Assembly (NCBI RefSeq): GCF_015752155.1
Contig: NZ_JADOVI010000001.1
Location: 248,001-312,000, forward strand
Direction: 5' to 3'
Length of the DNA stretch: 64,000 bases
From: Cryobacterium sp. MP_M3
GTDB lineage: Bacteria > Actinomycetota > Actinomycetes > Actinomycetales > Microbacteriaceae
A program made the translations under genes and the position numbers. The notes under the pieces are model-generated. The model was not told the origin of the DNA. It worked only from the letters and a program-made list of their open reading frames with translations, and made no database searches. Positions within the stretch are counted from its first letter, which is position 1; every line of letters begins with the position of its first letter. Positions 41,105 through 58,027 of this stretch are shown piece after piece.

Positions 41105-42295
41105 CTAGCGGGCGCCGAGCAGGTGCTCGAGGGCCAGCTGCTGCAGCCGCACGAAGCCGAAGCCCTTGCCGCCGAAGTAGGCATCCGTGTTGAAGTCCTC
41201 GTAGGAGGCGCGGTCGGCGAGCAGGTCGTCGTAGCTCTCGCCGGCGGCGAGGGTCGGCTGGGCCAGCTCGGGCACCATCGACGCGGCCAGCATCTGCTGC
41301 ACCTCGGGGTCGGCTCGGAAGGCCTTGGCGCGCTCCTTGAGCAGCAGGTAGGTCTGGATGTTCGCCTTGGCGGAATCCCAGACGCCGGTGATATCCTCGG
41401 TGCGGCTCGGCTTGTAGTCGAAGTGGCGCGGCCCGTCGTAGGCCTGGCCGCCGTTCGGGCCGCCGTTCTCGAGCAGGTCGACGAGCGCGAACGCGTTGTG
41501 CAGGTCGCCGTGGCCGAAGACGAGGTCCTGGTCGTACTTGATGCCGCGCTGGCCGTTGAGGTCGATGTGGAAGAGCTTGCCCTGGTACAGCGCCTGGGCG
41601 ATGCCGGCGGCGAAGTTGAGCCCGGCCATCTGCTCGTGGCCGACCTCGGGGTTCACGCCGACCAATTCGGGGCGCTCGAGGGTCGTGATGAATGCCATCG
41701 CGTGGCCGATCGTCGGCAGCAGGATGTCGCCGCGGGGTTCGTTCGGCTTCGGCTCGATCGCGAAGCGGATGTCGTAGCCCTTGTCGGTGACGTAGTCGCC
41801 GAGCAGGTTGACGGCCTCGCGGTAGCGCGAGAGCGCCGAGCGGATGTCCTTGGCGGAGTCGTACTCTGCGCCTTCCCGTCCGCCCCACATCACGAACGTC
41901 TTCGCGCCGAGCTCGGCGGCGAGGTCGAGGTTGCGCAGCACCTTGCGGAGGGCGAAGCGGCGGACGCTGCGGTCGTTCGAGGTGAATCCGCCGTCCTTGA
42001 AGACCGGCTCGCTGAATAGGTTGGTCGTGATCATCGGGATGATCAGGCCGGTGTCCGCACAGGCCTGCTTGACCCGGTCGATCTGCGACTGGCGCTTCTC
42101 CTCGGCGCAGCCGAAGGGGAACAGGTCGTTGTCATGGAAGGTCAGGCCGTACGCCCCGATTTTCGCCAGGTTCTCCACGGCGTCGACGACGTCGAGCGGC
42201 GGACGGGTCGGCCCACCGAACGGGTCAGCGCCGTTGTAGCCGATGGTCCAGAGGCCAAAGGAGAATTTGTCTGCGGGGGTGGGCGTGATGGCCAT
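41105..42295 (-). CDS. xylA: Xylose isomerase
   Basis: 396-residue enzyme converting D-xylose to D-xylulose, of the short actinobacterial class. Catalytic and metal-binding blocks are [11 protein letters not shown] (His and Asp), [13 protein letters not shown] (Glu and Lys), [12 protein letters not shown] (Glu and His) and [17 protein letters not shown] (Asp ligands). AAGGA is six bases before ATG 42295. A ROK-type dyad lies 31-53 bases upstream of the start, overlapping the end of the GH3 gene, so xylA probably has its own regulated promoter. Confidence 0.97.
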
Positions 42296-42325: not shown

Positions 42326-42348
42326 ATTTGTTGTAGCTAAAAACATAT
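42326..42348. promoter_or_regulatory. Candidate ROK/XylR box upstream of xylA
   Basis: Reads ATTTGTT-N9-AACATAT on the plus strand, i.e. ATATGTT-N9-AACAAAT towards xylA. It is one of five copies of this 23-bp dyad in the window (also 47896, 50603, 54679 and 56487). Confidence 0.7.
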
Positions 42349-44780
42349 TAGTGCAGAATCCGCGCCGGCGCGACTGCCGGGCGGGAATCGGCGAGCAAGA
42401 GCCCGGTCAGGGACGGTGCCACGGACACCGGGGCCACGAGCGAGCGGGTCTGGTCGACCGTGCGCGTCTGCCCGGTCAGGGCAGCCGGCAGTGCGTAGGC
42501 GATCCGGGAGCTCGAGTGCCCGAGGCGAAGCTCGAGAAGTCCGGGCTCGACTATGCGGTCGCCGTCGCGCCCGGTGAACGAGGCAAGGTCGGCGTGCACG
42601 GTGAACGTGATTCGCACGCTCTCGCCGGGATCGAGGTCGACCCGGTGATAGCCGACCAGCCGGTTCACCGGGCGCACGACGGATGCCACGGGGTCATGCA
42701 GGTAGAGCTGCACCACGTCGGCGCCGCGCCGGTCACCCGCATTGGTGACGGTGAGCGCCACCGTGGTGGCGGCATCCGTGGCGAACTCGGCCGCACCGAC
42801 CGCCGGGTCGGTCCAGTCGAAACTCGTATAGCCGAGCCCGTGCCCGAAGGCGAAACGGGCGGTCGGATCGAGGTTGGACACCTCGCTGAGCGTGCCGAGC
42901 GGTGAGGCGAGGTAGCCGGCCGGCTGCCCGCCCGCCCGGTTGGGGATGCTCACCGGCAGCCGGCCGGACGGGTTGACGCGCCCGCTGACCACACCGGCGA
43001 TTGCGCCGGCTCCCTCCTCGCCGGGGAAAAAAGATTGCAGCACGGCGGCGGAGCGCTCCGGCGCGTCGTGCAGGAAGTAGGGTCGGCCGGCCACGAGCAC
43101 GGTCACCACCGGGGTCCCGGCGGCGAGCACGGCATCGAGCAGGGACCACTGGCGGCCGGGCAGGTCAAGCGACTCGGCGTCGCAGCCCTCGCCGGAAGTG
43201 CCGCGGCCGAAGAGACCGGGCCGGTCGCCGAGCACCGCGATGACAAGGTCCGCGTCCGCGGCGGCCGCACAGGCCGCGGCGATCCCGGACTCGTCGGTGC
43301 CGTCGACAGTGACTCCGGCCGCGTAGCTCACTCGCGCGAGCGGGTACTCGGCGCGGACGGCCTCGAGCACGGTACGGATCTCGATGCCGATCGGCGTCTC
43401 CGGGTGCAGCGTACCGACGTGGCCCGGGAACGAATAGCATCCGAGGAGGTTGAGGGCGTCGTGGGCGTTAGGGCCGACGACGGCGATCCGTCGCACCGCG
43501 GGCAGCGGCAGCGTCCCGTCGGTGCTGAGCAACACGATGGACTGTTCGGCCACCCGGCGCGCCGTCAGGCGGTCGGCCGCCTGGTCGAGGTCGACCCGGC
43601 CGCGCACCGCGTCGATGTCGGCGAGGTCGGCCTCGGTCCAACCGGCGGGCAGCGGGGACCAGCCGGACTCGAGCAGGCCGAGGTCGAGTTTCTGCAGGAG
43701 CACCCGGCGGGCCGCCCGATCGATGAAGTCCAGGGGCAGGCGCCCCGCGGCGACCTCGGCGAGGAGCGGCTCGGCGAAGGTCTTGACCGTGGGCAGCTCG
43801 ACGTCGACCCCGGCGCGCAGCGCCTGGGCTGCGGCGTCTCCCCAGGTGCCGGCGACGCCGTGCAGGGCCTTGAGGAACGCGATCCCGAAGTAATCGGCCA
43901 CGACGGTACCGGTGAAGCCCCACCGGTCACGGAGAAGCTCCGTGAGCAGGGTCGGGTCGGCGGCCGTCGGCACGCCGTCCACATCGGTATAGGCGTGCAT
44001 GACCGAGCGCACGCCGCCGTCGCGGATGGCCATCTCAAAGGGCGGGACCAGCACGTCGTTGAATTCGCGCGCTCCGATCGACACGGGGGCGAGATTGCGC
44101 CCGGCCTTCGACGCCGAGTAGCCGATGAAATGCTTGAGGGTGGCGACGATGCCGGCGGATTCGAGTCCGCGCACGTAGGCGGTCGCGATGGTGCCGACGA
44201 GCGTCGGGTCCTCTCCGATGGTCTCCTCGACGCGGCCCCAGCGGGCGTCGCGCACGACGTCGAGCACGGGTGCGAGGCCTTGGTGCACGCCGACGGAGCG
44301 CATGCTCGCGCCGATCCGGCCCGACATCTCCCGCACCAGGGCCGGGTTGAAGGTCGCACCCCAGGCCAGGGGGACCGGGTAGGCGGTCGCTCCCCACGCC
44401 GTGAAGCCGGCGAGGCATTCCTCGTGGGCGAGGGCGGGGATGCCGAAGCGGCCGGCCGCGGTGATCCGGCGCTGGCTGCGCACGAGCGAGACCACCCCGA
44501 TCGCGGCGTCGACGGGGCCGGAGCCGAACGGCCGGGTGAGCTGGCCGAGGCCGTGCGGGAGCAGCTCGTCGAGGTCGACGACCTCTTCCATGTCGTGCTG
44601 GTAGGGGGCGACGCCGCCGCCGTCGCTCGCGGCGCCGACCCACACCCCGTAGAGCTGGGCGATCTTCTCCCGGGTGGTCATCGCGGCGAGGAGGGCGTCG
44701 ACGCGCTCGCCGGCGGACAGTGTGGTGTCGTGCCAGGCCGGAGTTGAGGCATCCGCGGGCATAGGGACGGTCGTGGGCAT
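42348..44780 (-). CDS. GH3 beta-glycosidase (probable beta-xylosidase/beta-glucosidase), intracellular
   Basis: 810-residue GH3 enzyme with the (alpha/beta)8 domain, alpha/beta sandwich (residues about 400-650) and C-terminal fibronectin-like domain (VVQLYLHDPVASVVRPVNRLVGY). The nucleophile is Asp296 in GTVVADYFGIAFL; substrate-site blocks are GLAPVLDVVRDARWGRVEETIGED and ATLKHFIGYSASKAGRN. No signal peptide, so it is cytoplasmic. It overlaps the upstream permease stop by one base (TAATG) and completes the importer operon that starts at 47826. Xylobiose-type or other beta-linked oligosaccharides are plausible substrates given xylA and xylB next door; specificity cannot be read from the sequence. 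Confidence 0.92.
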   Translation of the reverse strand: MPTTVPMPADASTPAWHDTTLSAGERVDALLAAMTTREKIAQLYGVWVGAASDGGGVAPYQHDMEEVVDLDELLPHGLGQLTRPFGSGPVDAAIGVVSLVRSQRRITAAGRFGIPALAHEECLAGFTAWGATAYPVPLAWGATFNPALVREMSGRIGASMRSVGVHQGLAPVLDVVRDARWGRVEETIGEDPTLVGTIATAYVRGLESAGIVATLKHFIGYSASKAGRNLAPVSIGAREFNDVLVPPFEMAIRDGGVRSVMHAYTDVDGVPTAADPTLLTELLRDRWGFTGTVVADYFGIAFLKALHGVAGTWGDAAAQALRAGVDVELPTVKTFAEPLLAEVAAGRLPLDFIDRAARRVLLQKLDLGLLESGWSPLPAGWTEADLADIDAVRGRVDLDQAADRLTARRVAEQSIVLLSTDGTLPLPAVRRIAVVGPNAHDALNLLGCYSFPGHVGTLHPETPIGIEIRTVLEAVRAEYPLARVSYAAGVTVDGTDESGIAAACAAAADADLVIAVLGDRPGLFGRGTSGEGCDAESLDLPGRQWSLLDAVLAAGTPVVTVLVAGRPYFLHDAPERSAAVLQSFFPGEEGAGAIAGVVSGRVNPSGRLPVSIPNRAGGQPAGYLASPLGTLSEVSNLDPTARFAFGHGLGYTSFDWTDPAVGAAEFATDAATTVALTVTNAGDRRGADVVQLYLHDPVASVVRPVNRLVGYHRVDLDPGESVRITFTVHADLASFTGRDGDRIVEPGLLELRLGHSSSRIAYALPAALTGQTRTVDQTRSLVAPVSVAPSLTGLLLADSRPAVAPARILH

Positions 44781-45598
44781 TACTTTCCTCCGACGCCCAT
44801 GAGGCCCTGGACAAGGGCGCGCCTGGCGAAGAGATAGACGAGCAGGACGGGGAGCATCGACAGCAACACGGCCGCCATCAGGCCGGGGATGTTGATGCCG
44901 TACTGGGACTGGAAATCGAACAGTCCGAGGGTGATGACCTTGGTCGACGCCGACTGGGTCAGGATCAGGGGGAAGAGGAACCCGTTCCAGGCCTGCAGCG
45001 CCGAGAACACGATGATGGTCGAGATGCCGCCCTTGGACAGCGGCAGCACGAGCCGGAAGAAACTGCGCATGGGCGTCGCCCCGTCCATGGCCATGGCCTC
45101 GTAGAGTTCCGGCGTGATGTCACGCATGCTGCCGCTGAGGATGAGGGTGCAGATCGGCAGGCAGAACGCGGCGGTCGGCAGGATGATGCCGATCAGGCTG
45201 TCGTAGAGGCCGGCGACGGTGATCAGGTAGAAGATCGGCACGATCACGGCCTGGGCCGGGATCGCGAGTCCGAGCAGGAAGGTGCGGAAGACGAGGGAGA
45301 TGCCGCGGCTCCGGCTGCGCACGACCGCGTAGGCCAGCGGCGGCACGAGCACGACGACGATTCCGACGACGCTCACCGTGACGATCGCCGTGTTGAGCAC
45401 GTAGGCGAGGAAACCGCTGCTGACCAGGGCGGTGAAGTTCTCCAGGGTGAAGCTGCCCGGCAGTGACAATGGGCCCTTGGCGGCGTAGCCCTGCTGGCTC
45501 TGGATCGTCGCGGTGAGCATGACGTAGATCGGCACGAGCACGATCAGGAGCCAGATGACGCTGCCGGCCCCCGCGATGTAGTTCGGTTTGGCCTTCAT
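44780..45598 (-). CDS. CUT1-type ABC permease, MalG-like (GH3 locus)
   Basis: 272-residue membrane protein with six hydrophobic segments and the EAA loop ITPELYEAMAMDGATPMRSFFRLVLPLSKGG. It overlaps the stop of the upstream permease by one base and the start of GH3 by one base, so the three are tightly coupled. Its MalF-like partner carries an in-frame stop, which questions whether this importer works. Confidence 0.92.
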   Translation of the reverse strand: MKAKPNYIAGAGSVIWLLIVLVPIYVMLTATIQSQQGYAAKGPLSLPGSFTLENFTALVSSGFLAYVLNTAIVTVSVVGIVVVLVPPLAYAVVRSRSRGISLVFRTFLLGLAIPAQAVIVPIFYLITVAGLYDSLIGIILPTAAFCLPICTLILSGSMRDITPELYEAMAMDGATPMRSFFRLVLPLSKGGISTIIVFSALQAWNGFLFPLILTQSASTKVITLGLFDFQSQYGINIPGLMAAVLLSMLPVLLVYLFARRALVQGLMGVGGK

Positions 45599-46515
45599 CA
45601 GATGCCCTCCTGCACGCTGTGCATCTTGTCGTAGCCGGTGACCCTGACCAGGACCAGGGAAATTGTCGTCGCGACAATGACGAGGACGAGCGCGATCGCG
45701 CTTCCGACGCCGAAGTCGAACGACTGGAACGCCTTCCGATACATGTAGAACGCGGTGATCGTCGTGTCGGTTCCCGGGCCGCCCTTGGTCAGGATGAGCA
45801 CCGTGTCGAACGTCGTCAGACCGCCGACGACCATGAGGATGACGGAGGTGACGATGGTGTTGCGCAGCTGCGGCAGGGTGATGCTGAAGAACTTTCAGAC
45901 CGTTCCCGCGCCGTCGATATCGGCGGCCTGGTAGAGCACCGGCGGGACTGAACGGGCTGCGCCCTGGTAGAGGAGCGTGTGCAGGGGAGTGAACTGCCAG
46001 GCCCCGACGAACGTGAGCACGGCGATCGCGCCGGCCTGGGTGCCGAGCACGTTGCCGTCGCCGCCGAAGAAGCTGCTGAACTGCCCGGGGAGGCCGAAGT
46101 TCGGGTCGAGCAGGGCCCGCCAGAGCACGGAGACCGCGGCGGAGGAGAGCAGGAGCGGCACGAAATAGATGGCCGAGAGGATGGCCCGGTTCTTCTGGTG
46201 GCCGGCCGCCCACGTGCCGAGCAGGATGCTCAACGGCGTCTGGATGGCGACCCCGAGCAGGGTCAGTAGCGCGCTCAACCAGAGGCTCTGCATCATGACC
46301 TTGTCGCCGGCCAACTTGACCCAGTTGTCGAGGCCGTTGAACGTGGGATTGCCGAGGCCGCTCCAGCTGGTGAAGGACATCACCGCGACGCCGATCAGCG
46401 GGAGGATGGCGAAGAGCGCGAAGAACAGGGTGGCGGGGAGCGCCCAGGCGAAGCCCGGGCGGCCCGCATTGGGGCCGCCCGGGTGCCGTGGGCGCCCGGT
46501 GTCGGAGCGCGTCAT
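45598..46515 (-). pseudogene. CUT1-type ABC permease, MalF-like, interrupted by an in-frame TGA
   Basis: The frame from ATG 46515 (AGGA eight bases upstream) encodes a normal MalF-like permease up to ADIDGAGTV, meets TGA at 45897-45895, and continues in the same frame with KFFSITLPQLRNTIVTSVILM to the true end at 45598. The stop falls inside the EAA loop, between DGAG and the ITLP segment. A one-base change from CGA (Arg) or TGG (Trp) explains it. Truncated at 206 residues, the product would lose the last two or three membrane helices. All neighbours are intact and the start signals are good, so the lesion is recent, a base-calling error, or tolerated through readthrough. Confidence 0.85.
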
Positions 46516-46524
46516 GTCAGGTTC

Positions 46525-47826
46525 CTAGAGCGCCTGCATCGCGGCGATGAAGCCGTCGACGTCCAGCTTGCCGCTGAAGAACTGCGCGACGGCGGTGTGC
46601 ATGTCGGCGGAGGCCGACTGCGGGTAGGCCTGGTCCCAGGAGAGCTGGAAGGCAGGGGCATCCTGCACCATCTTGAATTGGAATGCGGCGTAGGTCGGGT
46701 CGGCAGCCTGGTCGAGGAACTTCTCGGTCGAGGTCGTCGTCGTCAGATTGCCGATCGCGAGCTGGGCCTGCACGAACTCATCGGAGTACATGAGCTTGAG
46801 GAAATCGCGGGCGGTGTCGGGGTACCGGGTGGCCTTGATCACGGAGTAATAGTTGTTGGTGTTGCCGACGAGGTCCGCGGCGTCACCCTTTCCTCCCGTG
46901 ACGGTGGGGAAGGTGGCATAGCCGAGGTTGGCGGCGGTCCAGTCCTTGTCGGCGCTCTGTTGGGTGGAGTACTCCCACGAGCCCATCAGCTCGAATGCAG
47001 CCTTGCCGGTGCGTAGCAGGGCGGGCGAACCGCCGTCGACGAAGCTGACCGAGTCGAAGTTGGAGCCGAAGGCTCCTGCGTCGATGAGGTCCTTGAGCTT
47101 GGTGAGGGCGGCGCGGCTGTCCTTGCTGTCCCACGCGCTCGAGTCGCCGCCGATTGCCTTCGTCAGCAGATCGGGGCCGGCCACCCGGTCAAACATGTAC
47201 TCGTACCACATCAGTGTCGGCCACTGGTCGGCGCCACCGAGGGCGATCGGGGTGATGCCCTTGTCTTTGAGAATCTTCACGGAGGCCAGCAGGTCGTCCC
47301 AGGTTTTCGGGGATTCGATACCGGCGTCGGTGAGCACCTGCTTGTTGTTGAACAGGATGACCGGCTGGGTGCCGCGCATCGGAATGCCATACGGCACGCC
47401 GTCGATCGCGGCGGCGTTGAAGACCGAGGGGAGGAACGACGACTCGAGCTTGGGGTCGTCCTTGATCATGCCGGTCAGCGGGAGGAGCAGGTCGGCCTTC
47501 ACGAACGGCTGGATGCTGCCGCCGCCCCAATTGAAGAAGATGTCGGGGGCCGACGCGGTGCTGATGATCGTCTGGAGCTTCTGCTGGTAGTTGGCGCCGG
47601 GGATGCGGTCGAGGATGACCTTGACGTCGGACGTCGCGTTGAACTTCTTGACCATTGCCTCTTCGACCGTGTTGCCGGCATCGCCATAGACGGCGACGTG
47701 GATCACGTTCTCCGGGCGGTTGCTCGCCGCTCCGCTCGCGGTGGAGCACGCGGTGAGCGTCACTCCCAGCGCGAGTACTGCTGTGCCGGCGATGGCCCGG
47801 ATGAGCCACGTACTCTTGTTCGACAT
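46525..47826 (-). CDS. CUT1-type ABC transporter substrate-binding lipoprotein (GH3 locus)
   Basis: 433-residue oligosaccharide-binding lipoprotein; the lipobox TLTAC places the lipidated Cys at residue 27. Family-1 features are PDIFFNWGGGSIQPFV, DGVPYGIPMRGTQPVILFNNKQVL, SPKTWDDLLASVKILKDKGITPIALGGADQWP and FELMGSWEYS. GAGAGG lies six bases before ATG 47826. First gene of the operon with two permeases and GH3, divergent from a LacI gene, with a TTTCGG-N8-CCGAAA dyad and a ROK-type box in the shared region. Unlike the other binding-protein genes, only nine bases separate it from the permease gene and no hairpin is present. Confidence 0.92.
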   Translation of the reverse strand: MSNKSTWLIRAIAGTAVLALGVTLTACSTASGAASNRPENVIHVAVYGDAGNTVEEAMVKKFNATSDVKVILDRIPGANYQQKLQTIISTASAPDIFFNWGGGSIQPFVKADLLLPLTGMIKDDPKLESSFLPSVFNAAAIDGVPYGIPMRGTQPVILFNNKQVLTDAGIESPKTWDDLLASVKILKDKGITPIALGGADQWPTLMWYEYMFDRVAGPDLLTKAIGGDSSAWDSKDSRAALTKLKDLIDAGAFGSNFDSVSFVDGGSPALLRTGKAAFELMGSWEYSTQQSADKDWTAANLGYATFPTVTGGKGDAADLVGNTNNYYSVIKATRYPDTARDFLKLMYSDEFVQAQLAIGNLTTTTSTEKFLDQAADPTYAAFQFKMVQDAPAFQLSWDQAYPQSASADMHTAVAQFFSGKLDVDGFIAAMQAL

Positions 47827-47843
47827 TGAACGCCTCTCGAAAG

Positions 47844-47863
47844 TTTCGGTAATCTTGCCGAAA
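47844..47863. promoter_or_regulatory. LacI-type operator TTTCGG-N8-CCGAAA
   Basis: A perfect 6-bp inverted repeat in the divergent region between the importer operon and the LacI gene at 47961, 17 bases upstream of the importer start codon. It is the probable site of that LacI protein. Confidence 0.65.
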
Positions 47864-47895
47864 GTGATTAGGATGGTCGGAGTCTAGGTCGCCGG

Positions 47896-47918
47896 TTATG
47901 TTGCGTCAAGCCACAAAC
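47896..47918. promoter_or_regulatory. Candidate ROK/XylR box between importer and lacI
   Basis: TTATGTT-N9-CACAAAC, with the same arm spacing as the copies near xylA, chvE copy 3, the acetyltransferase and the alpha-xyloside operon. Confidence 0.6.
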
Positions 47919-47960
47919 CAACCGAGACTCGAATTCGACACCCCGAGAAAGGAACCTCAG

Positions 47961-49001
47961 ATGGGAAAGACCACCGCGGAGGACTCCGAACGCGTCACCC
48001 TCGCGGCGATCTCGGCCCTCGCCGCGGTGTCGCTGTCGACCGTGTCCAAGGTGCTCAATGGGCGGGGCGACGTCGCGGCCTCGACCCGGAGCCGGGTCGA
48101 GGCGCTCCTCACGGAGCACGGCTACAGCCGCCGGGGCGACGCAGCCGCCTCGGCGCCCCTGCTCGAGCTCGTCTTCCACGAGCTCGAGAGCGTGTGGGCG
48201 ATCGAGATCATCCGCGGCGTCGAGCGGGTGGCCAGGGAACACGGGATGAGCATCATCCTGACCGAGAGCGGGGACCGGCATTCGCCCGACCTCGATTGGA
48301 TCGACGGGGTGATCGCCCGCAACCCGGCCGGGGTGATCCTCGTCTTCTCCGACCTCTCGGCCGGGCACAAGCAGCAGCTCGCCACCCGCGGCATCCCCTT
48401 CGTCGTCGTCGATCCGGCGGGAGACCCTGCCCCCGACGTGCCGTCGATCGGCTCGGCCAACTGGTCGGGCGGGCTCGCGGCGACCCGGCACCTGATCGAC
48501 CTCGGGCACACCCGGATCGGCATGATCAGCGGCCCGTTCGACATGATGTGCTCGAGCGCACGGATCGGCGGCTATCGGGCCGCCCTCGACGCCGCGGGGA
48601 TCACCTTCGACCCGGCGCTCGTGCTCGAGGGCGACTTCCACCCCGAGGGTGCCAGGCTGCGCGCACTCGAACTGCTCGAGCGTGCCGACCGCCCCACCGC
48701 CATCTTCGCCGGAAGCGACCTGCAGGCGATGGGGGTCTACGAGGCGGCCAGAGCACTCGGCCTCGCGATCCCCGCCGACCTGTCCGTCGTCGGCTACGAC
48801 GACCTGCCGCTGGCCCGCTGGGTGGGCCCGCCGCTCACGACCGTTCGCCAACCGCTCACCGAAATGGCGGAGGAGGCGGCGCGGCTCGCGCTCCGGCTCC
48901 GGCGCGAACCCGGTCTCGAGGTGCAGCGGATGGACCTGGCCACGAGCCTGGTCTCGCGCCAGAGCACGGCGCGCGTCGATCAGGCGGTCGCCGGTCGGTA
49001 G
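47961..49001 (+). CDS. LacI-family regulator of the GH3 importer operon
   Basis: 346-residue repressor: helix-turn-helix VTLAAISALAAVSLSTVSKVLNGRGDVAASTRSRVEALLTEHGY, then a ligand core with VIARNPAGVILVFSDL, IGSANWSGGLAATRHLIDLGHTRIGMISGP and SVVGYDDLPLARWVGPPLTTVRQPL. ATG 47961 has AAGGAA six bases upstream. Divergent from the importer it likely controls, with a shared operator at 47844. The 3' end overlaps the end of the convergent GH43 gene by 22 bases. Confidence 0.92.
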   Translation: MGKTTAEDSERVTLAAISALAAVSLSTVSKVLNGRGDVAASTRSRVEALLTEHGYSRRGDAAASAPLLELVFHELESVWAIEIIRGVERVAREHGMSIILTESGDRHSPDLDWIDGVIARNPAGVILVFSDLSAGHKQQLATRGIPFVVVDPAGDPAPDVPSIGSANWSGGLAATRHLIDLGHTRIGMISGPFDMMCSSARIGGYRAALDAAGITFDPALVLEGDFHPEGARLRALELLERADRPTAIFAGSDLQAMGVYEAARALGLAIPADLSVVGYDDLPLARWVGPPLTTVRQPLTEMAEEAARLALRLRREPGLEVQRMDLATSLVSRQSTARVDQAVAGR

Positions 49002-50530
49002 TCGAAGGCCGTGACGACGGCCGGCCGGGCGGCGTCGCCGGTGGCGAACGGGCCGACAAACGTGCCCACAAAACCGCCGGCCCGTTCGGTGGTGAGCACC
49101 CCGGCATCCGTCTCGGCGACCGGGTACCTGGTGCTTCCGGCGGTCGCGACCAGCGCGACCCCTCGCCCGGACAACCGTGCCTCGAGCCGAACGCCGGCCG
49201 GGTCGGCCGCCTCGACCGGGTTGAGGCGCACGCTGCCCAGGACCCGATCGACCCCGCCGTCACGCTCGACCGCGGTCACGAGCGCGCCCGAGGGCCCCGT
49301 GCGCAACTCGAGCCGGAGCTGGAACGCCCCGCTCTGCCGCAGGGCCAGCCCCGCGGTCAGCCCGGGGGCAGGCGGGACTACCCGGATGCCGGCGCTCGCA
49401 TCCGGATGCCGCCAGCGGTATCCGAGGAACGCGGCCTGTCCGGCAGAACCCAGGTCGTGGCCGGTCGGAGTCAGTCGCAATCCGCCTGGTCCGGTCTTCG
49501 CGAAACTCGCCGGGCCGCGCAGGCTCAGCCAGTGACCGGCCGGAGCCGCTGCGGAGAAGTCGTCGTGCAGCCCGGCCGAGGTCGGCATGGCCGCGCCGGG
49601 CGGAGAGTCGAAGGGCGTGCTGCCGGCCGCGCTGAGCATCCCGGCCCCCGGGTTCACGACCGGCCAGTCGTCCTCCCAGGCCACCGGAGCCAGGAAGGTC
49701 TCCCGCCCGAGCAGGTGGCCGCCGGCCCGGGGCCGCACCCCGAGGGCGAGCGCCCACCACGATCCGTCGGGGCCGTCGACGAGGTCGGCGTGGCCGACGT
49801 TCTGCACCGCGGCCGTGCGGCCGAGGTGGCGGTGGGTCAGGATCGGGTTGCCGGGGTTGCCCTCGTAGGGGCCGGTGACCCGGCGCGAGCGGGCGACCGA
49901 CACGGCATGATGCTGCTCGGTGCCGCCCTCGGCCGCGACGAGGTAGAACCAGCCGTCGCGCTGGTAGAGGTGCGGCCCCTCCGCCCAGACCGCTCCGTGC
50001 AGGGCGCCGTTCCAGAGGATGTGCTCCTCCCCGACGAGCGCGCCGGCGGCCAGGTCGAGTTCTCGCAGCCAGACCTCGGTCTGACCGGGGTACGCGCCCG
50101 GTTCGACCAGCCTGCAGCCGGCCCACCAGGCCGTGCCGGCGTCGAAGAAGAGGTCCGGGTCGATGCCCCTGGCCTCGTCGATCCAGACCGGGTCCGACCA
50201 GGGGCCGGCAGGGTCGGTGGCGGTGACCAGGAAGGAGCCGTCGCGCTCGCCGCCGACGCTTGTGCAGGCCAGGTAGAAGCGACCGTCGTGATGGCGGAGG
50301 GTGGGGGCGTAGAGGCCGCCCGAGTCGGGGACCCCGGCCAGGTCGAGCTGGCCCGGCCGGTCGATCGCGTGTCCGATCGGTGTCCAGGTCACCAAGTCGG
50401 TGCTCGAGTGCAGCGGAAGGCCCGGGAAGTACTCGAACGAGGAGGTCACGAGGTAGAAGGTGTCCTCGACCCGGCACACCGATGGGTCGGGGTGCATGCC
50501 TGGCAGGACGGGATTCGAGTACGCGGTCAT
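48980..50530 (-). CDS. GH43 beta-xylosidase / alpha-L-arabinofuranosidase, intracellular
   Basis: 516-residue enzyme with the five-bladed propeller of GH43 and a C-terminal beta-sandwich (from about residue 330), as in XynB-type xylosidases of this length. Catalytic acids: Asp15 in MHPDPSVCR (base), Asp126 in RGIDPDLFFD (pKa modulator) and Glu184 in WAEGPHLYQ (acid). No signal peptide, so it acts in the cytoplasm on xylo- or arabinoxylo-oligosaccharides. It is divergent from chvE copy 3 and shares a 189-base control region with the ROK-type box at 50603. The gene ends 22 bases inside the convergent LacI gene. Confidence 0.93.
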   Translation of the reverse strand: MTAYSNPVLPGMHPDPSVCRVEDTFYLVTSSFEYFPGLPLHSSTDLVTWTPIGHAIDRPGQLDLAGVPDSGGLYAPTLRHHDGRFYLACTSVGGERDGSFLVTATDPAGPWSDPVWIDEARGIDPDLFFDAGTAWWAGCRLVEPGAYPGQTEVWLRELDLAAGALVGEEHILWNGALHGAVWAEGPHLYQRDGWFYLVAAEGGTEQHHAVSVARSRRVTGPYEGNPGNPILTHRHLGRTAAVQNVGHADLVDGPDGSWWALALGVRPRAGGHLLGRETFLAPVAWEDDWPVVNPGAGMLSAAGSTPFDSPPGAAMPTSAGLHDDFSAAAPAGHWLSLRGPASFAKTGPGGLRLTPTGHDLGSAGQAAFLGYRWRHPDASAGIRVVPPAPGLTAGLALRQSGAFQLRLELRTGPSGALVTAVERDGGVDRVLGSVRLNPVEAADPAGVRLEARLSGRGVALVATAGSTRYPVAETDAGVLTTERAGGFVGTFVGPFATGDAARPAVVTAFDYRPATA

Positions 50531-50579
50531 GCTTGACACCCTAGTGAGCGGCCATGCCGAGCGGCGCCGGGTTTGGTGG

Positions 50580-50607
50580 TTGTCTCCTGGCTCACAGGTG
50601 CTATATG
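50580..50607 (+). promoter_or_regulatory. Candidate promoter of chvE-mmsAB copy 3
   Basis: TTGTCT (50580-50585) and TATATG (50602-50607) are 16 bases apart. The ROK-type box begins inside the -10 element, so binding would repress. Confidence 0.5.
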
Positions 50608-50625
50608 TTGGAGCCGTCAACATAA
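50603..50625. promoter_or_regulatory. Candidate ROK/XylR box upstream of chvE copy 3
   Basis: ATATGTT-N9-AACATAA; the inner TATGTTG/CAACATA arms form a perfect 7-7-7 dyad, the most symmetric of the five copies. It overlaps the candidate -10 element. Confidence 0.75.
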
Positions 50626-50719
50626 ACGGTTCGACCGGATGTCGACCCAGCGTTACAAGGAGGTGATCGGCAGTTCTGCCTCCTCGTGCGATCACAGCAT
50701 TCAGAGCAGAAAGCAGATC

Positions 50720-51841
50720 ATGACGACAACCAAGAGGCTGTTCACCATCGTTGCCACGGGAGCAGTCGCGCTCTCGCTCGCGGCATGTTCGGGCACCACC
50801 ACCGGCTCCACCGGAAGCACCGGCGCGGCCATCGCCGACTGCAACGTCGGCATCTCGATGCCCACCCGCAGCCTCGAGCGCTGGATCAACGACGGTGAGG
50901 GTCTCAAGACCCAGCTCGAAGACGCCGGCTGCACCGTCGACCTCCAGTACGCCGACAACAAGACCGACCAGCAGATCAGCCAGATCCAGAACCAGGTCGC
51001 CGGTGGTGCCAAGATCCTGGTCGTTGCATCCATCGACGGCAAGGTGCTCTCGCCCGTGCTCGCCGAGGCCAAGAAGCAGGATGCCACGGTGATCGCCTAT
51101 GACCGGTTGATCAACGGCACCAAGGACGTCGATTACTACGCCACCTTCGACAACTACAAGGTCGGGCAGCTGCAGGGCGAGTTCATCGAAGCCCAGCTCG
51201 GCCTGGCCGACGGCAAGGGCCCGTTCAACCTCGAGCCCTTCGCCGGCAGCCCCGACGACAACAACGCCAAGTTCTTCTTCTCCGGCGCCTGGGACGTGTT
51301 GCTGCCCTACGTCGAGAGCGGCCAGCTCGTCGTACCCAGCGGCAAGGCGCCCAAGTCCAACGACGAGTGGACGACGCTCGGCATCCAGGGCTGGGCTTCT
51401 GACAAGTCCCAGGCCGAGATGGACAACCGTCTCTCCTCGTTCTACGGCAACGGCGCGAAGGTCAACGTCGTGCTCTCGCCCAACGACAGCCTGGCCGTCG
51501 GGATCGAAGCCTCGCTCAAGTCCGCGGGCTACAAGCCCGGCGCTGACTACCCGCTGATCACCGGGCAGGACGCCGACAAGGCCAACGTCAAGGCGATCCT
51601 CGATGGCGCCCAGTCGATGACCGTCTGGAAGGACACCCGCACCCTGGGCAAACAGGTCTTCACCATGATCCAGTCCATCGCGGCGGGCGACACGGTCGAG
51701 GTCAACGACACCAAGACCTATGACAACGGCAAGAAGGTCGTGCCGTCGTTCCTGCTCGCCCCCGAGGTCGTCACCAAGGACGACGTGCAGACCAAGCTCA
51801 TCGATTCCGGGTTCATCAAGGCCTCGGACGTCGGCCTCTAG
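50720..51841 (+). CDS. chvE: Multiple-monosaccharide ABC transporter substrate-binding lipoprotein (copy 3)
   Basis: 373-residue ChvE-family lipoprotein; the lipobox LSLAAC gives Cys at residue 23. Conserved blocks are [60 protein letters not shown] and TGQDADKANVKAIL. More like copy 1 than copy 2 in the ligand region (RW instead of NW after the first strand). Its box of the ROK type and position among xyl genes make D-xylose the likely ligand. The ribosome site is weak (AGAAAG nine bases before ATG 50720). Confidence 0.93.
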   Translation: MTTTKRLFTIVATGAVALSLAACSGTTTGSTGSTGAAIADCNVGISMPTRSLERWINDGEGLKTQLEDAGCTVDLQYADNKTDQQISQIQNQVAGGAKILVVASIDGKVLSPVLAEAKKQDATVIAYDRLINGTKDVDYYATFDNYKVGQLQGEFIEAQLGLADGKGPFNLEPFAGSPDDNNAKFFFSGAWDVLLPYVESGQLVVPSGKAPKSNDEWTTLGIQGWASDKSQAEMDNRLSSFYGNGAKVNVVLSPNDSLAVGIEASLKSAGYKPGADYPLITGQDADKANVKAILDGAQSMTVWKDTRTLGKQVFTMIQSIAAGDTVEVNDTKTYDNGKKVVPSFLLAPEVVTKDDVQTKLIDSGFIKASDVGL

Positions 51842-51853
51842 GTCGACTCCCCG

Positions 51854-51881
51854 GGTGGCGGGGCCGGCCGGTCCCGCCACC
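51854..51881 (+). terminator. Intercistronic hairpin between chvE copy 3 and mmsA copy 3
   Basis: A 12-bp stem (51854-51865 with 51870-51881, one G-U pair) with a GGCC loop, followed by ATTT. It sits at the same position as the hairpin of operon 1 at 1931. Confidence 0.75.
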
Positions 51882-51931
51882 ATTTCGGCACGCTGCACCA
51901 CCGATGAAACACGCTGACAGGAGCGCCAGTC

Positions 51932-53461
51932 ATGAATGGTCCGATTCTTCGGATGCTCGGCATCGAGAAGGACTTCAGTGGGGTCAAAGCCCTCGACGGG
52001 GTCTCGATCGAAGTGGAACGCGGCAAGGTCCACGGCATTTGCGGGGAGAACGGGGCCGGGAAGTCCACGCTGATGAAGGTGCTCAGCGGCGTCTACCCGC
52101 ACGGCAGTTACGACGGCAGGATCGAATTCGAGGGCGAGGAAGCCGCCTTCCGCTCGATCAACGACAGCGAAGCCGTCGGCATCGTCATCATCCACCAGGA
52201 ACTCGCCCTGAGCCCGTACCTCTCTATTGCGGAGAACATCTTCCTCGGCAACGAGAACTCGAAGCGCGGCGTCATCGACTGGAACAAGACAAACCTCGAG
52301 GCGTCGAGCCTGCTCGCGAGGGTCGGGCTCGACGAGAACCCGGCCACCAAGGTACTCGAACTCGGCGTTGGCAAGCAGCAGCTCGTCGAAATCGCCAAGG
52401 CCCTCTCCAAGCGGGTCAAGCTGCTCATCCTCGACGAACCGACCGCCGCGCTCAACGACGAAGACTCCGACCACCTGCTCGACCTGATCGAACACCTCCG
52501 CGGGCAGGGCATCACCTGCATCATCATTTCCCACAAGCTCAAGGAGATCCGCCGGATCGCAGACACCGTCACGGTGATCCGTGACGGTAAGACGATCGAG
52601 ACGATCGACATGCACGGCCCGGATGCCACCCAGGCCCGGATCATCCGCTCAATGGTGGGCCGCGACCTGAACAGCATGTTCCCGCCGCGCGAACCCAAGA
52701 TCGGCGCGGAGATCCTCCGGGTCGAGGACTGGACGGTCTACCACCCGGTCGACACGGCACGCAAGGTCGTCGACAACGCCTCCTTCACGGTGCGGGCCGG
52801 CGAGGTGGTCGGCTTCGCCGGACTGATGGGGGCCGGCCGCACCGAACTCGCAATGAGCCTGTTCGGCCGCTCCTACGGCACCAACATCTCCGGTCGGGTC
52901 TACAAGAACGGCGAGGAAATCTCCGTGCGGACCGTCGACGAGGCCATCCGGAATGGGATCGCCTATGCCACCGAGGACCGCAAGAAATACGGCCTCAACC
53001 TGATCGGCGACATCACCGTCAACGTCTCGGCCGCGGCCCTGGCCACCCTCGCGAAGTACGGGGTGATCGACCGCCACCGGGAATACAAGGTCGCCGAGAG
53101 CTACCGCACCCGGATGAATATCAAGGCGCCGACCGTCTCGGCCATCACCGGCAAACTCTCCGGCGGCAACCAGCAGAAGGTGGTGCTGTCGAAGTGGATC
53201 TTCGCCGGCCCCGACATCCTCTTCCTCGACGAACCGACGCGTGGAATCGACGTCGGCGCCAAGTACGAGATCTACGGAATCATCAACGAACTCGCCGCCG
53301 CCGGCAAAGCCGTCGTCGTCATCTCCTCTGAACTGCCGGAGCTGCTCGGCATCTCCGACCGCATCTATGCGATCTCCGACGGCCGGATCACCGGCGAAGT
53401 CGCCGGCGTCGACGCCACCCAGGAATCCCTCATGCACTACATGACCGCGGGAAAGGACTAA
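51932..53461 (+). CDS. mmsA: Multiple-monosaccharide ABC transporter ATP-binding protein (copy 3)
   Basis: 509-residue double-domain ATPase of the sugar importer. Walker [10 protein letters not shown] is at residues 38-46, the divergent domain-1 signature is [14 protein letters not shown] with Walker B LLILDEPT, and domain 2 has a degenerate P-loop GLMGAGRTE with an intact LSGGNQQK and [19 protein letters not shown] lies seven bases before the ATG. Closely related to the copies at 1994 and 5118. Probably the xylose importer's engine, judged from the locus. Confidence 0.95.
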
Positions 53462-53467
53462 ACCGCA

Positions 53468-54655
53468 ATGACAACCACCACTCCCGCCAAGCGCAAGCCG
53501 CGGCTGGCCATCAACTTTCGCCAGTACGGAATCCTCGCCGCCCTGGTCGTCATCGTCGTGCTGTTTCAGGTGCTCACCAACGGGCGCCTGCTGCTGCCGG
53601 GCAACGTCAACAATCTGATCCAGCAGAACGCGTACGTGCTGATCCTCGCCGTCGGCATGGTGGTGGTGATCATCGCCGGCCATATCGACCTGTCGGTCGG
53701 GTCGGTGGTCGCCATGGTCGGTGCGGTCTCGGCGATCGCCACGAACGTGTGGGGCCTTCCCTGGTGGGCGTCCGTGCTGCTCGCCCTGCTCGTCGGTGCG
53801 CTGGTCGGGGCCTGGCAGGGTTTCTGGGTGGCGTTCGTGGGCATCCCCGCCTTCATCGTGACGCTGGCCGGAATGCTCATCTTCCGAGGTCTCACCCTCG
53901 TCCTGCTGACCGGCGGCACCATCAGCGGGCTTCCCGACCAGTTCACCGCGATCGGGGCCGGCTGGCTGCCGGGCTTCCTTGGTGAACTCGGTGGACGCGA
54001 CGTGCTGACCCTGGGTCTCGGGCTGGTCACCTGCGTGGCGCTCGTGCTGCAGCAGCTGCGCACCCGGGCGACCCTCCGCCGGCTGGAGTTGCCCCGCGAG
54101 ACGCTCACCCAGCTCTGGCTGAAGAACGGCATCGCGATCGTCGCCATCATGTGGCTGGCTTGGCTCCTGTCGGGATACAGTGGCACTCCGATCATCCTGA
54201 TCATCCTTGCCGTGCTGATCCTGCTCTACACGTTCATGCTCAACCAAACCGTGTTCGGCCGGCACGTGTACGCCATCGGCGGCAACCTGTTCGCCGCCAT
54301 GATGAGCGGCGTGAAGACGAAGTGGGTCAACTTCTACGTCTTCGTCAACATGGGCGTGCTCGCCGGCCTGGCAGGGGTCGTCAGCACGGCCCGCGCGGGC
54401 GGCGCCGTGGCATCCGCCGGCCAGAACTACGAATTGGATGCCATCGCGGCCGTCTTCATCGGCGGTGCCGCGGTGCAGGGAGGCATCGGCACGGTCGTCG
54501 GGGCCATAGTCGGCGGCCTGGTGATGGGCGTCCTCAACATGGGCCTCTCGATCCTCTCGGTCGACGCGGCGTGGCAGATGGCGATCAAGGGGCTTGTGCT
54601 TCTGCTCGCGGTCGCCTTCGACATCTTCAACAAGCGCCGCAGCGGCGGACGCTGA
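53468..54655 (+). CDS. mmsB: Multiple-monosaccharide ABC transporter permease (copy 3)
   Basis: 395-residue RbsC/XylH-type permease with about ten hydrophobic segments and the blocks [54 protein letters not shown] and [14 protein letters not shown]. It follows mmsA by six bases. The ending [12 protein letters not shown] is nearly identical to that of copy 1 ([12 protein letters not shown]). A sugar acetyltransferase gene follows 31 bases later without a visible terminator. Confidence 0.94.
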   Translation: MTTTTPAKRKPRLAINFRQYGILAALVVIVVLFQVLTNGRLLLPGNVNNLIQQNAYVLILAVGMVVVIIAGHIDLSVGSVVAMVGAVSAIATNVWGLPWWASVLLALLVGALVGAWQGFWVAFVGIPAFIVTLAGMLIFRGLTLVLLTGGTISGLPDQFTAIGAGWLPGFLGELGGRDVLTLGLGLVTCVALVLQQLRTRATLRRLELPRETLTQLWLKNGIAIVAIMWLAWLLSGYSGTPIILIILAVLILLYTFMLNQTVFGRHVYAIGGNLFAAMMSGVKTKWVNFYVFVNMGVLAGLAGVVSTARAGGAVASAGQNYELDAIAAVFIGGAAVQGGIGTVVGAIVGGLVMGVLNMGLSILSVDAAWQMAIKGLVLLLAVAFDIFNKRRSGGR

Positions 54656-54678
54656 TTCGGCGGGCGGCCACCGATAGG

Positions 54679-54701
54679 ATATGTTCATGTCTCAAACAAA
54701 T
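54679..54701. promoter_or_regulatory. Candidate ROK/XylR box over the acetyltransferase start
   Basis: ATATGTT-N9-AACAAAT spans the ribosome site and start codon of the acetyltransferase gene. The spacing equals the other four copies, but its position over a start codon makes it the least certain as an operator. Confidence 0.45.
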
Positions 54702-55373
54702 AGGCCGACGCCGGACCCCGGTCGCTCGGAATTCGACAAGATGGTGGCGGGGGACTGGTACCGGTACCGCTCCGGCCCCGAGCTCGCCGAGCTGACCATC
54801 GGCACCCAGCGCACCTGCCGGCAGATCACCGCCCTCTTCGACGAGGACAGGGATGCCGCCCAGGAACTGTTCACCGGGATGCTCGGCACGGCCGGCGAGG
54901 GCGTCGACTTCCGGCCGCCGCTCTACCTGGACTACGGCTCGCGCCTGCACGTGGGGTCCGGCACCTTCATCAACGCCGACTTCCTCGCCCTCGGCGGTGG
55001 GGAGATCACGATCGGGAAGAACGTGCTCGTCGGGCCGAGCGCACGCCTCTACACCCCGATCCACGCCCTTGACGTCGGCGAACGCCGGGCCGGCTACGAA
55101 CGGGTGCTGCCGATCCGGATCGGCGACGACGTCTGGCTCGGCGGGAACGTCGTCGTCTGCCCCGGTGTCACGATCGGCGCCGGCAGTGTCATCGGCGCCG
55201 GCTCCGTGGTCACCAGGGATGTGCCGCCGGGTGTCATCGCCGTCGGCAACCCGGCCCGCGTCATCCGCACCCTCGCCGAGGCCGCCGAGGCCGCCGAGGC
55301 CGAGGAGGCCGAGCAGGCCGAGCAGGCCGAGCAGGGCCGGTCTGAGCCGGACCCGGGCGCACCCGCACGGTAG
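54687..55373 (+). CDS. Maltose/galactoside O-acetyltransferase family protein
   Basis: 228-residue left-handed beta-helix acetyltransferase that moves acetyl from acetyl-CoA to a sugar hydroxyl. The N-terminal maltose-acetyltransferase cap is SEFDKMVAGDWYRYRSGPELAEL, and the hexapeptide repeats run from about residue 70 to 185 (GGGEITIGKNVLVGPSARLYTPIHALDV with the catalytic-type His, then GDDVWLGGNVVVCPGVTIGAGSVIGAGSVV). After VGNPARVIRTL comes a low-complexity tail of AEAAEAAEAEE and EQAEQAEQ units. ATG 54687 is favoured by AGGAT seven bases upstream over ATG 54681. It is probably the last gene of the chvE-mmsAB copy 3 operon and may detoxify non-metabolised sugars, as proposed for LacA. 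Confidence 0.9.
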   Translation: MSQTNRPTPDPGRSEFDKMVAGDWYRYRSGPELAELTIGTQRTCRQITALFDEDRDAAQELFTGMLGTAGEGVDFRPPLYLDYGSRLHVGSGTFINADFLALGGGEITIGKNVLVGPSARLYTPIHALDVGERRAGYERVLPIRIGDDVWLGGNVVVCPGVTIGAGSVIGAGSVVTRDVPPGVIAVGNPARVIRTLAEAAEAAEAEEAEQAEQAEQGRSEPDPGAPAR

Positions 55374-55445
55374 CCTGCACGACCTGACCGGATGCCGCGC
55401 ACGGCCTGATGCGGCAGACTGTGCCACGAGGGATTCGAGGGGTTC

Positions 55446-56462
55446 ATGGCGAGCATTCACGACGTGGCGCGGGTGGCCGGCGTGTCGATCAGCACGGTGT
55501 CCTATGCGCTTTCCGGCAAGCGTTCCATCGCGGAGTCGACCCGGCTCCGCATCAACAATGCCGTGGAACAGTTGGGCTACCGGCCCAACGCGGGAGCGCG
55601 CATGCTTGCCGGGACGCGCACCAACATCTTCGCGCTGACCGCGCCGTTCCATGCGGAGACCTACGCGCCTGCGCACATGGCCTTCGTGCTCGCCGTGGCG
55701 CAGGCCTCCCGCGCCCACGACTACGACGTGCTGCTGCTCACCCAGGATGAGGCCACCAGCGGACTGCGGCGAGTCGCCTCCAGCCGCCTTGTCGACGGCA
55801 TCATCGTGCTCGACGTCGCGGCCGACGACGACCGGGTGGGGGTGATCAGGAAGCTCGGCACGCCGGCCGTCTTCATCGGGGTTCCGCGGGACGCCGAGGG
55901 GCTGGTCTGCGTGGACCTCGATTTCGAAGCCGCGGCGGCCCTGGCGATCAGTCGCCTCGCCGACGCCGGCCACCGGGCGATCGGGCTCATCGGCCACTCT
56001 CCCGGCGTGTATGCGCGCGGCTCCAACTTTCCGCCCCGGTTCCGGGACGGCTTCTTCCGCGCTGCGGCGGCGCGGGGAATCGGAACGGCGTTCGCCATGC
56101 CCGAGCGTGACGGGTCGAGCGTGCGAGCGGCCGTCGACGAGCTCTACCGGGCGCTGCCGGGGATGACCGCCCTCGTGCTGCACTGCGAAGAGGCGGTGCA
56201 GGCGGCCGTGATGGACATCCTGCGCGAACGCGGGTTGCGCGTGCCGGAGGACCTGTCGGTGATCTCAGCCTGCGCGAGCTTCGAGACGGATCACTTCGAG
56301 CCTGCCCTCGACACCATCCCCCTGGTCGCGGCCGACTCCTGCACGCGGGCAGTGGAGCTGGCGATCGAGCAGGTCGCCGGACCGATCGCCCCCCGGGTCG
56401 AGCTCGTGCCGCCGCGCTACCTCGAGCGCGGATCGATCGCGCCTCCCGCCCCCCTCCGCTGA
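55446..56462 (+). CDS. LacI-family regulator of the alpha-xyloside operon
   Basis: 338-residue repressor with helix-turn-helix ASIHDVARVAGVSISTVSYALSGKRSIAESTRLRINNAVEQLGYRPNAGARMLAGTRTN and a ligand core (RLVDGIIVLDVAADDDRVGV, DLDFEAAAALAISRLADAGHRAIGLIG, SVISACASFETDHFEPALDTI). It lies 203 bases upstream of, and in the same direction as, the binding-protein gene at 56666. The two TCGAAGCGTTTCG dyads in that gap are its probable targets. The start ATG 55446 follows GAGGGGTTC. Confidence 0.92.
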   Translation: MASIHDVARVAGVSISTVSYALSGKRSIAESTRLRINNAVEQLGYRPNAGARMLAGTRTNIFALTAPFHAETYAPAHMAFVLAVAQASRAHDYDVLLLTQDEATSGLRRVASSRLVDGIIVLDVAADDDRVGVIRKLGTPAVFIGVPRDAEGLVCVDLDFEAAAALAISRLADAGHRAIGLIGHSPGVYARGSNFPPRFRDGFFRAAAARGIGTAFAMPERDGSSVRAAVDELYRALPGMTALVLHCEEAVQAAVMDILRERGLRVPEDLSVISACASFETDHFEPALDTIPLVAADSCTRAVELAIEQVAGPIAPRVELVPPRYLERGSIAPPAPLR

Positions 56463-56486
56463 CGCCAACCGAGCCCCCTCGCGCGG

Positions 56487-56509
56487 ATATGTTGCAATTC
56501 TCCACAAAC
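56487..56509. promoter_or_regulatory. Candidate ROK/XylR box upstream of the alpha-xyloside operon
   Basis: ATATGTT-N9-CACAAAC, ending three bases before the -35 element of the operon promoter. Its arms and spacing match the other four copies. Confidence 0.65.
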
Positions 56510-56665: not shown

Positions 56666-57961
56666 GTGAGATTAGGTAAGCGCACTCTCGCCGTCGTGGC
56701 GATGGCGGCAACGGCGGCCCTGTTGTCGGGCTGTGTAAACGGCGGGGGCGGCGGCGCGGCGGACGACGCGAGCAAGACCCTCACCCTGTGGGACTTCGAG
56801 AGCGACACGAGCGCGATGGGCATCGCCTGGAACCAGGCGATCAAGACCTTCGAGAAGGAGACCGGCGCGAAGGTCAAGTTCGAGGCCAAGAGCTTCGAGC
56901 AGATCCGCTCGACCGCGAGCCAGGTGCTCAACTCGGACAAGGCCCCAGACGTGCTCGAGTACAACAAGGGCAACGCGACCGCCGGGCTCCTGGCCAGCCA
57001 GGGCCTGCTGAGCAACCTCGACGACGCCGTCAAGAAGTACGGCTGGGCCGACAAGCTCGCACCGTCGCTGCAGACCACGGCGAAGTATGACGAAAACGGC
57101 ATCATGGGCTCCGGCTCCTGGTACGGCGTGCCCAACTACGGCGAATTCGTCGAGGTCTATTACAACAAGGACATGTTCGCGAAGTACAACATCGCTATCC
57201 CGACCACGCAAGCCGAATTCGAGGCGGCGCTCAAGACCTTCGCCGACGCCGGGATCACCCCGCTGGCCGAGTCGGCCGCCGAGTACCCGCTGGGCCAGCT
57301 CTGGTACCAGCTCGCCCTCACCAAGGCCGACCGAAGCTTCGTCGACGACTACCAGCTCTACAAGGGCAAGGTCGACTGGCAGGGCAAGGAACTGAGCTAC
57401 GCCACGGAGACCATCAAGGACTGGACCGACATCAGCAAGGACGCCAGCGGCACCAAGGCAGAGGATGCCGGCACCGCCTTCATCGCCGGCACCAACCCGA
57501 TCTTCTTCTCCGGCAGCTGGTGGTACAACCGCTTCACGACCGAGGTCAAGGGGTTCGACTGGGGCACCTTCCTCTACCCCGGCGCGAAGATGTCGCCCGG
57601 CTCCGCCGGCAACATGTGGGTCGTCCCGGAGAACGCGAAGAACAAGGACCTCGCGGCGAAGTTCATCGACATCACCATGCGACCGGAGATCCAGGCCCTG
57701 ATCGGCAACAACGGCGGCGTGCCCGTCGCGGCGAACGCGGCAGACATCACCGACCCGAAGAGCAAGGAACTGATCGACAACTTCAACACCCTCACCGGTG
57801 AAGACGGCATCGCGTTCTACCCCGACTGGCCCACCCCGACCTTCTACGACCAGCTCAACGCCGGCCTGCAGGAGCTCATCAACGGAACCAAGTCGTCCAA
57901 GGACGTGCTGACCCAGCTCGGCGGCCAATACGAAGACGGCATCAAGGACATCAAGAAGTAG
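56666..57961 (+). CDS. CUT1-type ABC transporter substrate-binding lipoprotein (alpha-xyloside locus)
   Basis: 431-residue oligosaccharide-binding lipoprotein; the lipobox LLSGC places the lipidated Cys at residue 23. Family-1 features: KTLTLWDFESDTSAMGIAWNQAIKTFEKETGAKV, KAPDVLEYNKGNATAGLLASQGLL, GSWYGVPNYGEFVEVYYNKDMFAKYNI and GSWWYNRFTTEVKGFDWG. The start is GTG with an ideal AAGGAGGT five bases upstream. First gene of an operon with two permeases, GH31 alpha-xylosidase and GH1 beta-glucosidase, so xyloglucan-type oligosaccharides or isoprimeverose are plausible ligands. Confidence 0.92.
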   Translation: MRLGKRTLAVVAMAATAALLSGCVNGGGGGAADDASKTLTLWDFESDTSAMGIAWNQAIKTFEKETGAKVKFEAKSFEQIRSTASQVLNSDKAPDVLEYNKGNATAGLLASQGLLSNLDDAVKKYGWADKLAPSLQTTAKYDENGIMGSGSWYGVPNYGEFVEVYYNKDMFAKYNIAIPTTQAEFEAALKTFADAGITPLAESAAEYPLGQLWYQLALTKADRSFVDDYQLYKGKVDWQGKELSYATETIKDWTDISKDASGTKAEDAGTAFIAGTNPIFFSGSWWYNRFTTEVKGFDWGTFLYPGAKMSPGSAGNMWVVPENAKNKDLAAKFIDITMRPEIQALIGNNGGVPVAANAADITDPKSKELIDNFNTLTGEDGIAFYPDWPTPTFYDQLNAGLQELINGTKSSKDVLTQLGGQYEDGIKDIKK

Positions 57962-57978
57962 TCCTCCCGGCCGCTGAA

Positions 57979-58027
57979 TTGCGGAGAAAACACCCTTGAC
58001 TCGAGGGTGAAGGTGTTTTCTCCGCAA
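57979..58027 (+). terminator. Large intercistronic hairpin TTGCGGAGAAAACACC / GGTGTTTTCTCCGCAA
   Basis: Perfect 16-bp arms (57979-57994 and 58012-58027) enclose 17 bases; an alternative inner stem CACCCT/AGGGTG (57991-57996 with 58004-58009) overlaps one arm. It lies between the binding-protein and permease genes and would limit permease expression or stabilise the upstream message. Confidence 0.85.

Follow-up and report, generated by a model that had tools for sequence, protein, structure and literature searches.

A 23-bp dyad repeated across a Cryobacterium xylose locus and its probable recognition by a ROK-family XylR repressor

The window analysed here is a 64,000-nucleotide stretch of the Cryobacterium sp. 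MP_M3 genome that carries a xylose and xyloside locus and, at its right edge, the 5' part of a ROK regulator gene (Table 1). Five 23-bp boxes of the form WTWTGTT-N9-MACAWAH occur in the locus, at 42326, 47896, 50603, 54679 and 56487, each with 0 mismatches to the pattern. The locus raises the question of which protein reads these boxes and how far its control extends. With a probability of about 0.9, the boxes serve as operators for a xylose-released XylR of the actinobacterial kind, namely the ROK repressor encoded from 63831, and this repressor acts by occlusion. Control by a XylR of the ROK type is of a known kind; here it is spread over genes for both xylose and xylosides. Among open-licence papers, no prior description of XylR in Microbacteriaceae or Cryobacterium was found.

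Table 1. Genes and boxes of the xylose/xyloside locus, in window coordinates.
Feature	Position	Strand	Evidence or remark
xylB, FGGY sugar kinase	39351..40871	-	FGGY_N and FGGY_C; comes after xylA
xylA, xylose isomerase	41105..42295	-	TIGR02631
Predicted XylR box, xylA	42326..42348	-	Upstream of xylA, 30 bp from ATG
GH3 beta-xylosidase/alpha-L-arabinosidase	42348..44780	-	NF052329, above cut-off
Sugar-binding protein, GH3-linked importer	46525..47826	-	Putative promoter at box 47896 reads toward it
Weaker asymmetric box	47896..47918	-	Between GH3-importer operon and a lacI gene
LacI-family regulator a	47961..49001	+	Start inferred
GH43 beta-xylosidase-like enzyme	48980..50530	-	PF04616 (1e-88) and PF17851
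Box, chvE/GH43	50603..50625	+	Between divergent GH43 and chvE-gguAB
chvE (copy 3), multiple-monosaccharide binding protein	50720..51841	+	NF040907, above cut-off
gguA and gguB, ATPase and permease of ChvE importer	51932..54655	+	NF040905, NF040906
Box, acetyltransferase	54679..54701	+	Overlaps the gene's start codon and a -10-like TAGGAT at 54675-54680
Mac/hexapeptide sugar acetyltransferase	54687..55373	+	PF12464, PF00132; start inferred
LacI-family regulator b	55446..56462	+	PF00356
Asymmetric box, GH31/GH1 operon	56487..56509	+	3 bp upstream of TTGCGC-N17-TATGCT (TTGCGC read by eye)
Importer (binding protein, two permeases), GH31, GH1	56666..63801	+	Upstream of xylR
xylR, predicted ROK repressor gene, 5' part	63831..64000	+	Whole frame 394 aa, L007:2831-4015

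The five boxes described in the first-pass annotation are all present, and no sixth match is found in the window when up to 2 mismatches are allowed. Shuffled versions of the window contain a mean of 0.30 matches and a maximum of 2. The nine-base centre, which had been called invariant, is constant in length and variable in sequence. Three boxes (42326, 50603 and 54679) are symmetric; in the other two, 47896 and 56487, the right arm is degenerate, with 2 mismatches to the symmetric form. A scoring matrix was built from 47 xylA-promoter sites in loci whose XylA is less than 94.5% identical, the training sites being chosen with the annotation's pattern, made symmetric. When all window positions are scored with it, the five boxes take ranks 1 to 5 (35.8, 32.7, 28.4, 14.7 and 9.2 bits) and the next position scores 4.3. 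A clear gap separates the symmetric boxes (28 to 36 bits) from the asymmetric ones (14.7 and 9.2), and boxes 47896 and 56487 are the weaker ones.

Four of the five boxes had been assigned to control regions; all five are in such regions, including 54679, which extends over a start codon. The promoters named here are putative, since their hexamers are consensus matches, some of them found by eye. A scripted search returns a -35/-10 pair for the GH3 importer and chvE only, and no pair at xylA, GH43, the acetyltransferase or the GH31 operon. Box 42326 overlaps TAATAT, a -10-like hexamer (42350-42345). The -10 of TTGTCT-N18-TATGTT, ahead of chvE-gguAB, falls within box 50603, and chvE is preceded by a box in other loci as well (L087, L096, L102, L271 and L272). 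Box 47896 covers the -35 of TTGACG-N17-TAGACT, which reads toward the sugar-binding protein of the GH3 importer. A 1-mismatch site is found at the equivalent position in Galbitalea (L200), and two Cryobacterium genomes (G002 and G016) have no exact match at this place. The GH31-operon gene of L087, L092 and L096 is preceded by boxes that match better than 56487. The case for repression by XylR is strong at xylA, chvE and the acetyltransferase. Repression is likely at the GH31 operon, whose box is better formed in the three loci just named, and the case is weakest at 47896. Downstream of the putative GH31-operon promoter, at window positions 56555-56610, there are repeated GAAGCGTTTCG-type palindromes that resemble LacI-family operators.

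The acetyltransferase box has an unusual position that recurs in other Cryobacterium genomes, where a TANNNT hexamer stands 6-7 bases before the start codon and the box lies over the start (starts assigned by eye). This arrangement is seen once beside xylA (L098) and away from xylA in L026, L046 and L050. Both features suggest that the mRNA is leaderless and carries the operator at its first codons. The box of L035 (G016) precedes the likely acetyltransferase start by about 30 bp. In G048 (L102), there is no box at the start of the acetyltransferase gene, which counts against the XylR reading.

When up to 1 mismatch is allowed, a pattern search of all 56 contigs of the genome (3.94 Mb) returns six places, every one of them exact on at least one strand. 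Five are within a 14.2-kb part of the window and the sixth is at C2:214677. The backwards pattern, used as a control in the same genome, gives 1 match on one strand and 3 on the other at up to 1 mismatch, and 0 exact matches. At up to 3 mismatches, a stricter symmetric pattern is scarcely more frequent than its backwards control (55 v 42 per strand), and little weight can be given to sites that are not near-exact. A weaker genome-wide regulon was rejected on this ground, and no 3-mismatch site was added. The boxes are thus concentrated in this locus. The annotation's proposal of a global xylose-type control is not supported, since every credible site of the genome falls in one 14.2-kb stretch; the control is local.

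The sixth box, an exact match, is 43-65 bp upstream of the start of another ROK gene in this genome, ROK2 (C2:214743), and this raises the possibility that ROK2 is the real binder. ROK2, scored as present when the best match has at least 60% identity, does not track the box, however: the box is found in 15 of the 19 genomes with ROK2 vs 22 of the 38 others (p=0.10). Among eight ROK2 upstream regions, the site is near-exact in the window's genome only, has 3 mismatches in G013 and 2 in G048, and has no counterpart within 3 mismatches in the remaining five. The ROK2 intergenic region also carries a different dyad of its own, ATTCTTT-N9-AAAGAAT. ROK2 is therefore very unlikely to be the binder, and it was rejected for its lack of tracking and for the poor conservation of the site at its orthologues. 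The dyad ATTCTTT-N9-AAAGAAT is at L055:1346-1368 (G000 C2), between ROK2 and a divergent gene for a sugar-binding protein. By eye, it is exact in L055, L056 and L060, near-exact in L061 and altered in L057. It is likely to be the operator of ROK2 itself and shares the 7-9-7 geometry of the XylR box.

Across 57 Cryobacterium genomes, the exact box is found in 37, and all 37 contain an orthologue of the ROK protein encoded at 63831 (at least 66% identity). The exact box is present in 37 of the 45 genomes with the orthologue vs 0 of the 12 without (p=1.8e-7, a value that ignores phylogeny). G027, which has only paralogues of 50-56% identity, is counted among the genomes without the orthologue; one of its paralogues is divergent from xylA, with a 1-mismatch box between them. 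The eight orthologue-bearing genomes that have no exact box all have a site with 1-2 mismatches before xylA and/or the ROK gene. At 1e-60, three of these eight (G023, G029 and G045) give no xylA match, which means that xylA is not the sole basis of the link between the ROK gene and the box. In G025 (L097), the box is between divergent ROK and xylA genes. Co-occurrence with xylA is equally tight (37 of 43 genomes with xylA vs 0 of 14 others), and the profile could therefore partly reflect the pathway. Upstream of xylA, 55 of 56 Cryobacterium regions, some of them repeats of one genome in several loci, have a site at up to 1 mismatch (0.1 in shuffles). Among the ROK types of the window's genome, the 63831 type is nearly the only one in box loci, with 27 matches compared with 4 of another, ROK8-like type.

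The family sample consists of 120 genomes, the window's genome and 119 others, with a ROK match threshold of 1e-70. The exact symmetric box is found in 37 of the 120, that is, in 35 of the 86 genomes with a ROK match vs 2 of the 34 without (p=7.5e-5, which ignores shared ancestry). Two features count against the XylR reading: no exact box is found in 51 of the 86 genomes that have a ROK match, and an exact box is found in two genomes (G458 and G480) that lack such a match at 1e-70. The xylose and ROK queries give no match in the 13-14 kb surrounding the box in these two genomes, nor in G515, whose ROK match is on a different contig. With the window's genome left out, 34 of 40 exact boxes are within 20 kb of a ROK homologue, and 13 are within 500 bp. 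The other six are the three without query matches nearby and those of G488, G562 and G510, where the homologue is on another contig, 1.15 Mb away or 39 kb away, and the box is still found before chvE-gguAB or xylA.

Among 59 non-Cryobacterium loci fetched by ROK similarity, 36 have one or more sites at up to 1 mismatch and 23 have none; together they contain 53 such sites in 727 kb, compared with 0 in ten shuffles. The xylA upstream regions of other genera, which come from these ROK-fetched loci and not from a random xylA sample, have a site at up to 1 mismatch in 31 of 32 cases (0 in shuffles). The xylA box persists in Arthrobacter and in the mycobacteria, where xylA, a box at up to 1 mismatch and a divergent ROK gene follow in this order in 10 of 10 mycobacterial loci listed, the listing covering 65 of 80 loci. 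This conservation bears on whether the boxes are AT-rich promoter elements that arose by chance or through tuning of the pattern. Such an origin would fit the promoter-like hexamer that every box overlaps or abuts, and it was to these five sites that the pattern had been fitted. It is nevertheless extremely improbable: the exact backwards pattern has 4 matches in all over the 57 Cryobacterium genomes, and the box is conserved across genera and is specifically close to one ROK family. These results contradict a chance origin for the symmetric sites, and for 47896 chance is possible.

The closest published system is the XylR of Mycobacterium smegmatis, whose DNase I footprint is CATCTTATGTTCGTCGAGAGAACAAAATA (PMC10138657). 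This footprint holds TTATGTTCGTCGAGAGAACAAAA, which has 0 mismatches to the box pattern, and it agrees at 20 of 23 positions with the site between xylA and the ROK homologue of M. chubuense. None of 396 genomes of M. chubuense's genus matched the footprint, in a set that probably did not include M. smegmatis. D-xylose binds M. smegmatis XylR with a Kd of 4.72 uM and inhibits its binding to DNA (PMC10138657). The likeness thus includes a xylR gene divergent from the xylA cluster and a repressor released by D-xylose; the reported system differs in having one footprinted site, compared with five here over several xylose operons. A set of 166 genes, in lipid synthesis and metabolism, is reported as affected by M. 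smegmatis XylR, and the word ROK is absent from the main text of that paper (PMC10138657). From the shared gene layout in mycobacterial loci, we infer that M. smegmatis XylR is an orthologue of the window's ROK protein. By this analogy, the Cryobacterium protein would bind the dyad and be released by xylose. The operator adjoins xylA and/or the regulator gene and matches a footprinted XylR site. Genus and family tracking, proximity and this footprint all support the annotation's proposal that the ROK protein of 63831 binds the box. Its observation is confirmed, and its choice of protein is very probably correct.

The presence of boxes near both lacI genes would be consistent with binding by either local LacI repressor or by a different sugar regulator. 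Such a binder is highly unlikely, as the box persists without a LacI homologue in the fetched stretch in six loci (L097, L101, L104, L219, L222 and L228), and the site footprinted for M. smegmatis XylR is the same as the box (PMC10138657).

The XylR of Bacillus subtilis is a member of the ROK family. It is a xylose-responsive repressor with TGTT/AACA arms, but its operator, TTAGTTTGTT-N5-AACAAACTAA, has 5 bases between TGTT and AACA, compared with 9 here (PMC12034463). The ROK-family XylR of Firmicutes has a similar regulon, with xylA, xylB, transporters, alpha- and beta-xyloside genes and often xylR; it differs in phylum and in its group-specific motifs, one of them very different (PMC2873477). 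Streptomyces XylR, set beside the present case by description, represses a xyl operon in another actinobacterium (PMC6149001). RokB of Streptomyces coelicolor is a ROK regulator with a site overlapping a start codon, as at the acetyltransferase, but has another regulon (PMC4856308).

The xylR frame starts 29 bp after the end of the GH1 gene and probably closes the GH31-GH1 operon. Its 394-aa product contains a ROK domain (PF00480, 8.1e-37, residues 97-380). From residues 7-9 onward, the N-terminal, DNA-binding part can be aligned with Mlc and further ROK regulators; it has no separate HTH Pfam match at 1e-5. A cysteine (zinc) motif, CxCGxxGC, is typical of ROK-family repressors, though not required. 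By text pattern, it is present in 60 of the 89 rows of the family set. Of the six rows for Cryobacterium paralogues (50-56%; two of them represent one gene), five keep it. The motif is absent from the window protein and from the other Cryobacterium XylR-orthologue rows that were inspected. Cryobacterium XylR thus appears to have lost a motif that most of its relatives keep.

In the proposed mechanism, XylR would occupy the 23-bp dyad when xylose is absent and block RNA polymerase, at the -10 of xylA and chvE and at the -35 of the GH3 importer. At the acetyltransferase, it would cover the start point of the probably leaderless mRNA. D-xylose binding would free XylR from the DNA, and this release would switch on the xylose isomerase and kinase, the ChvE-type importer, the xylosidases and the acetyltransferase. 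With its box just upstream of the -35, the GH31 operon would make XylR indirectly autoregulatory. The local LacI repressors would add substrate-specific control. A layering of XylR above them is plausible, because both LacI-linked importers have boxes in their control regions. The wider proposal is that a single 7-9-7 operator is common to the xylose regulons of Microbacteriaceae, Arthrobacter and mycobacteria. In Cryobacterium, this operator would have spread across an entire xylose/xyloside locus and added a second level of control to that of the LacI repressors. One copy would lie inside the start of a leaderless acetyltransferase gene, and the protein reading it would be a XylR that has lost the zinc-type cysteine motif. 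For this proposal as a whole, the odds are about even. The XylR reading of the boxes provides an operator code that can be tested in a large actinobacterial group and ties one of the genome's ten ROK genes to targets. It also suggests which transporters and glycosidases serve xylose sugars, and it offers candidate xylose-inducible promoters for cold-adapted Cryobacterium.

The window's genome has 11 ROK-domain matches, two of which are pieces of one frame. The tree of ROK rows left out those with an internal stop or fewer than 330 aligned residues. Two XylR orthologues (G055:C5:61584 and G014:C26:282979) have one in-frame TAG each, which may mark pseudogenes or errors of sequencing. A second ROK paralogue, with about 52% identity to XylR, is present in G004, G005, G006, G034 and others, and it adjoins gguB in G004, G006 and G034.
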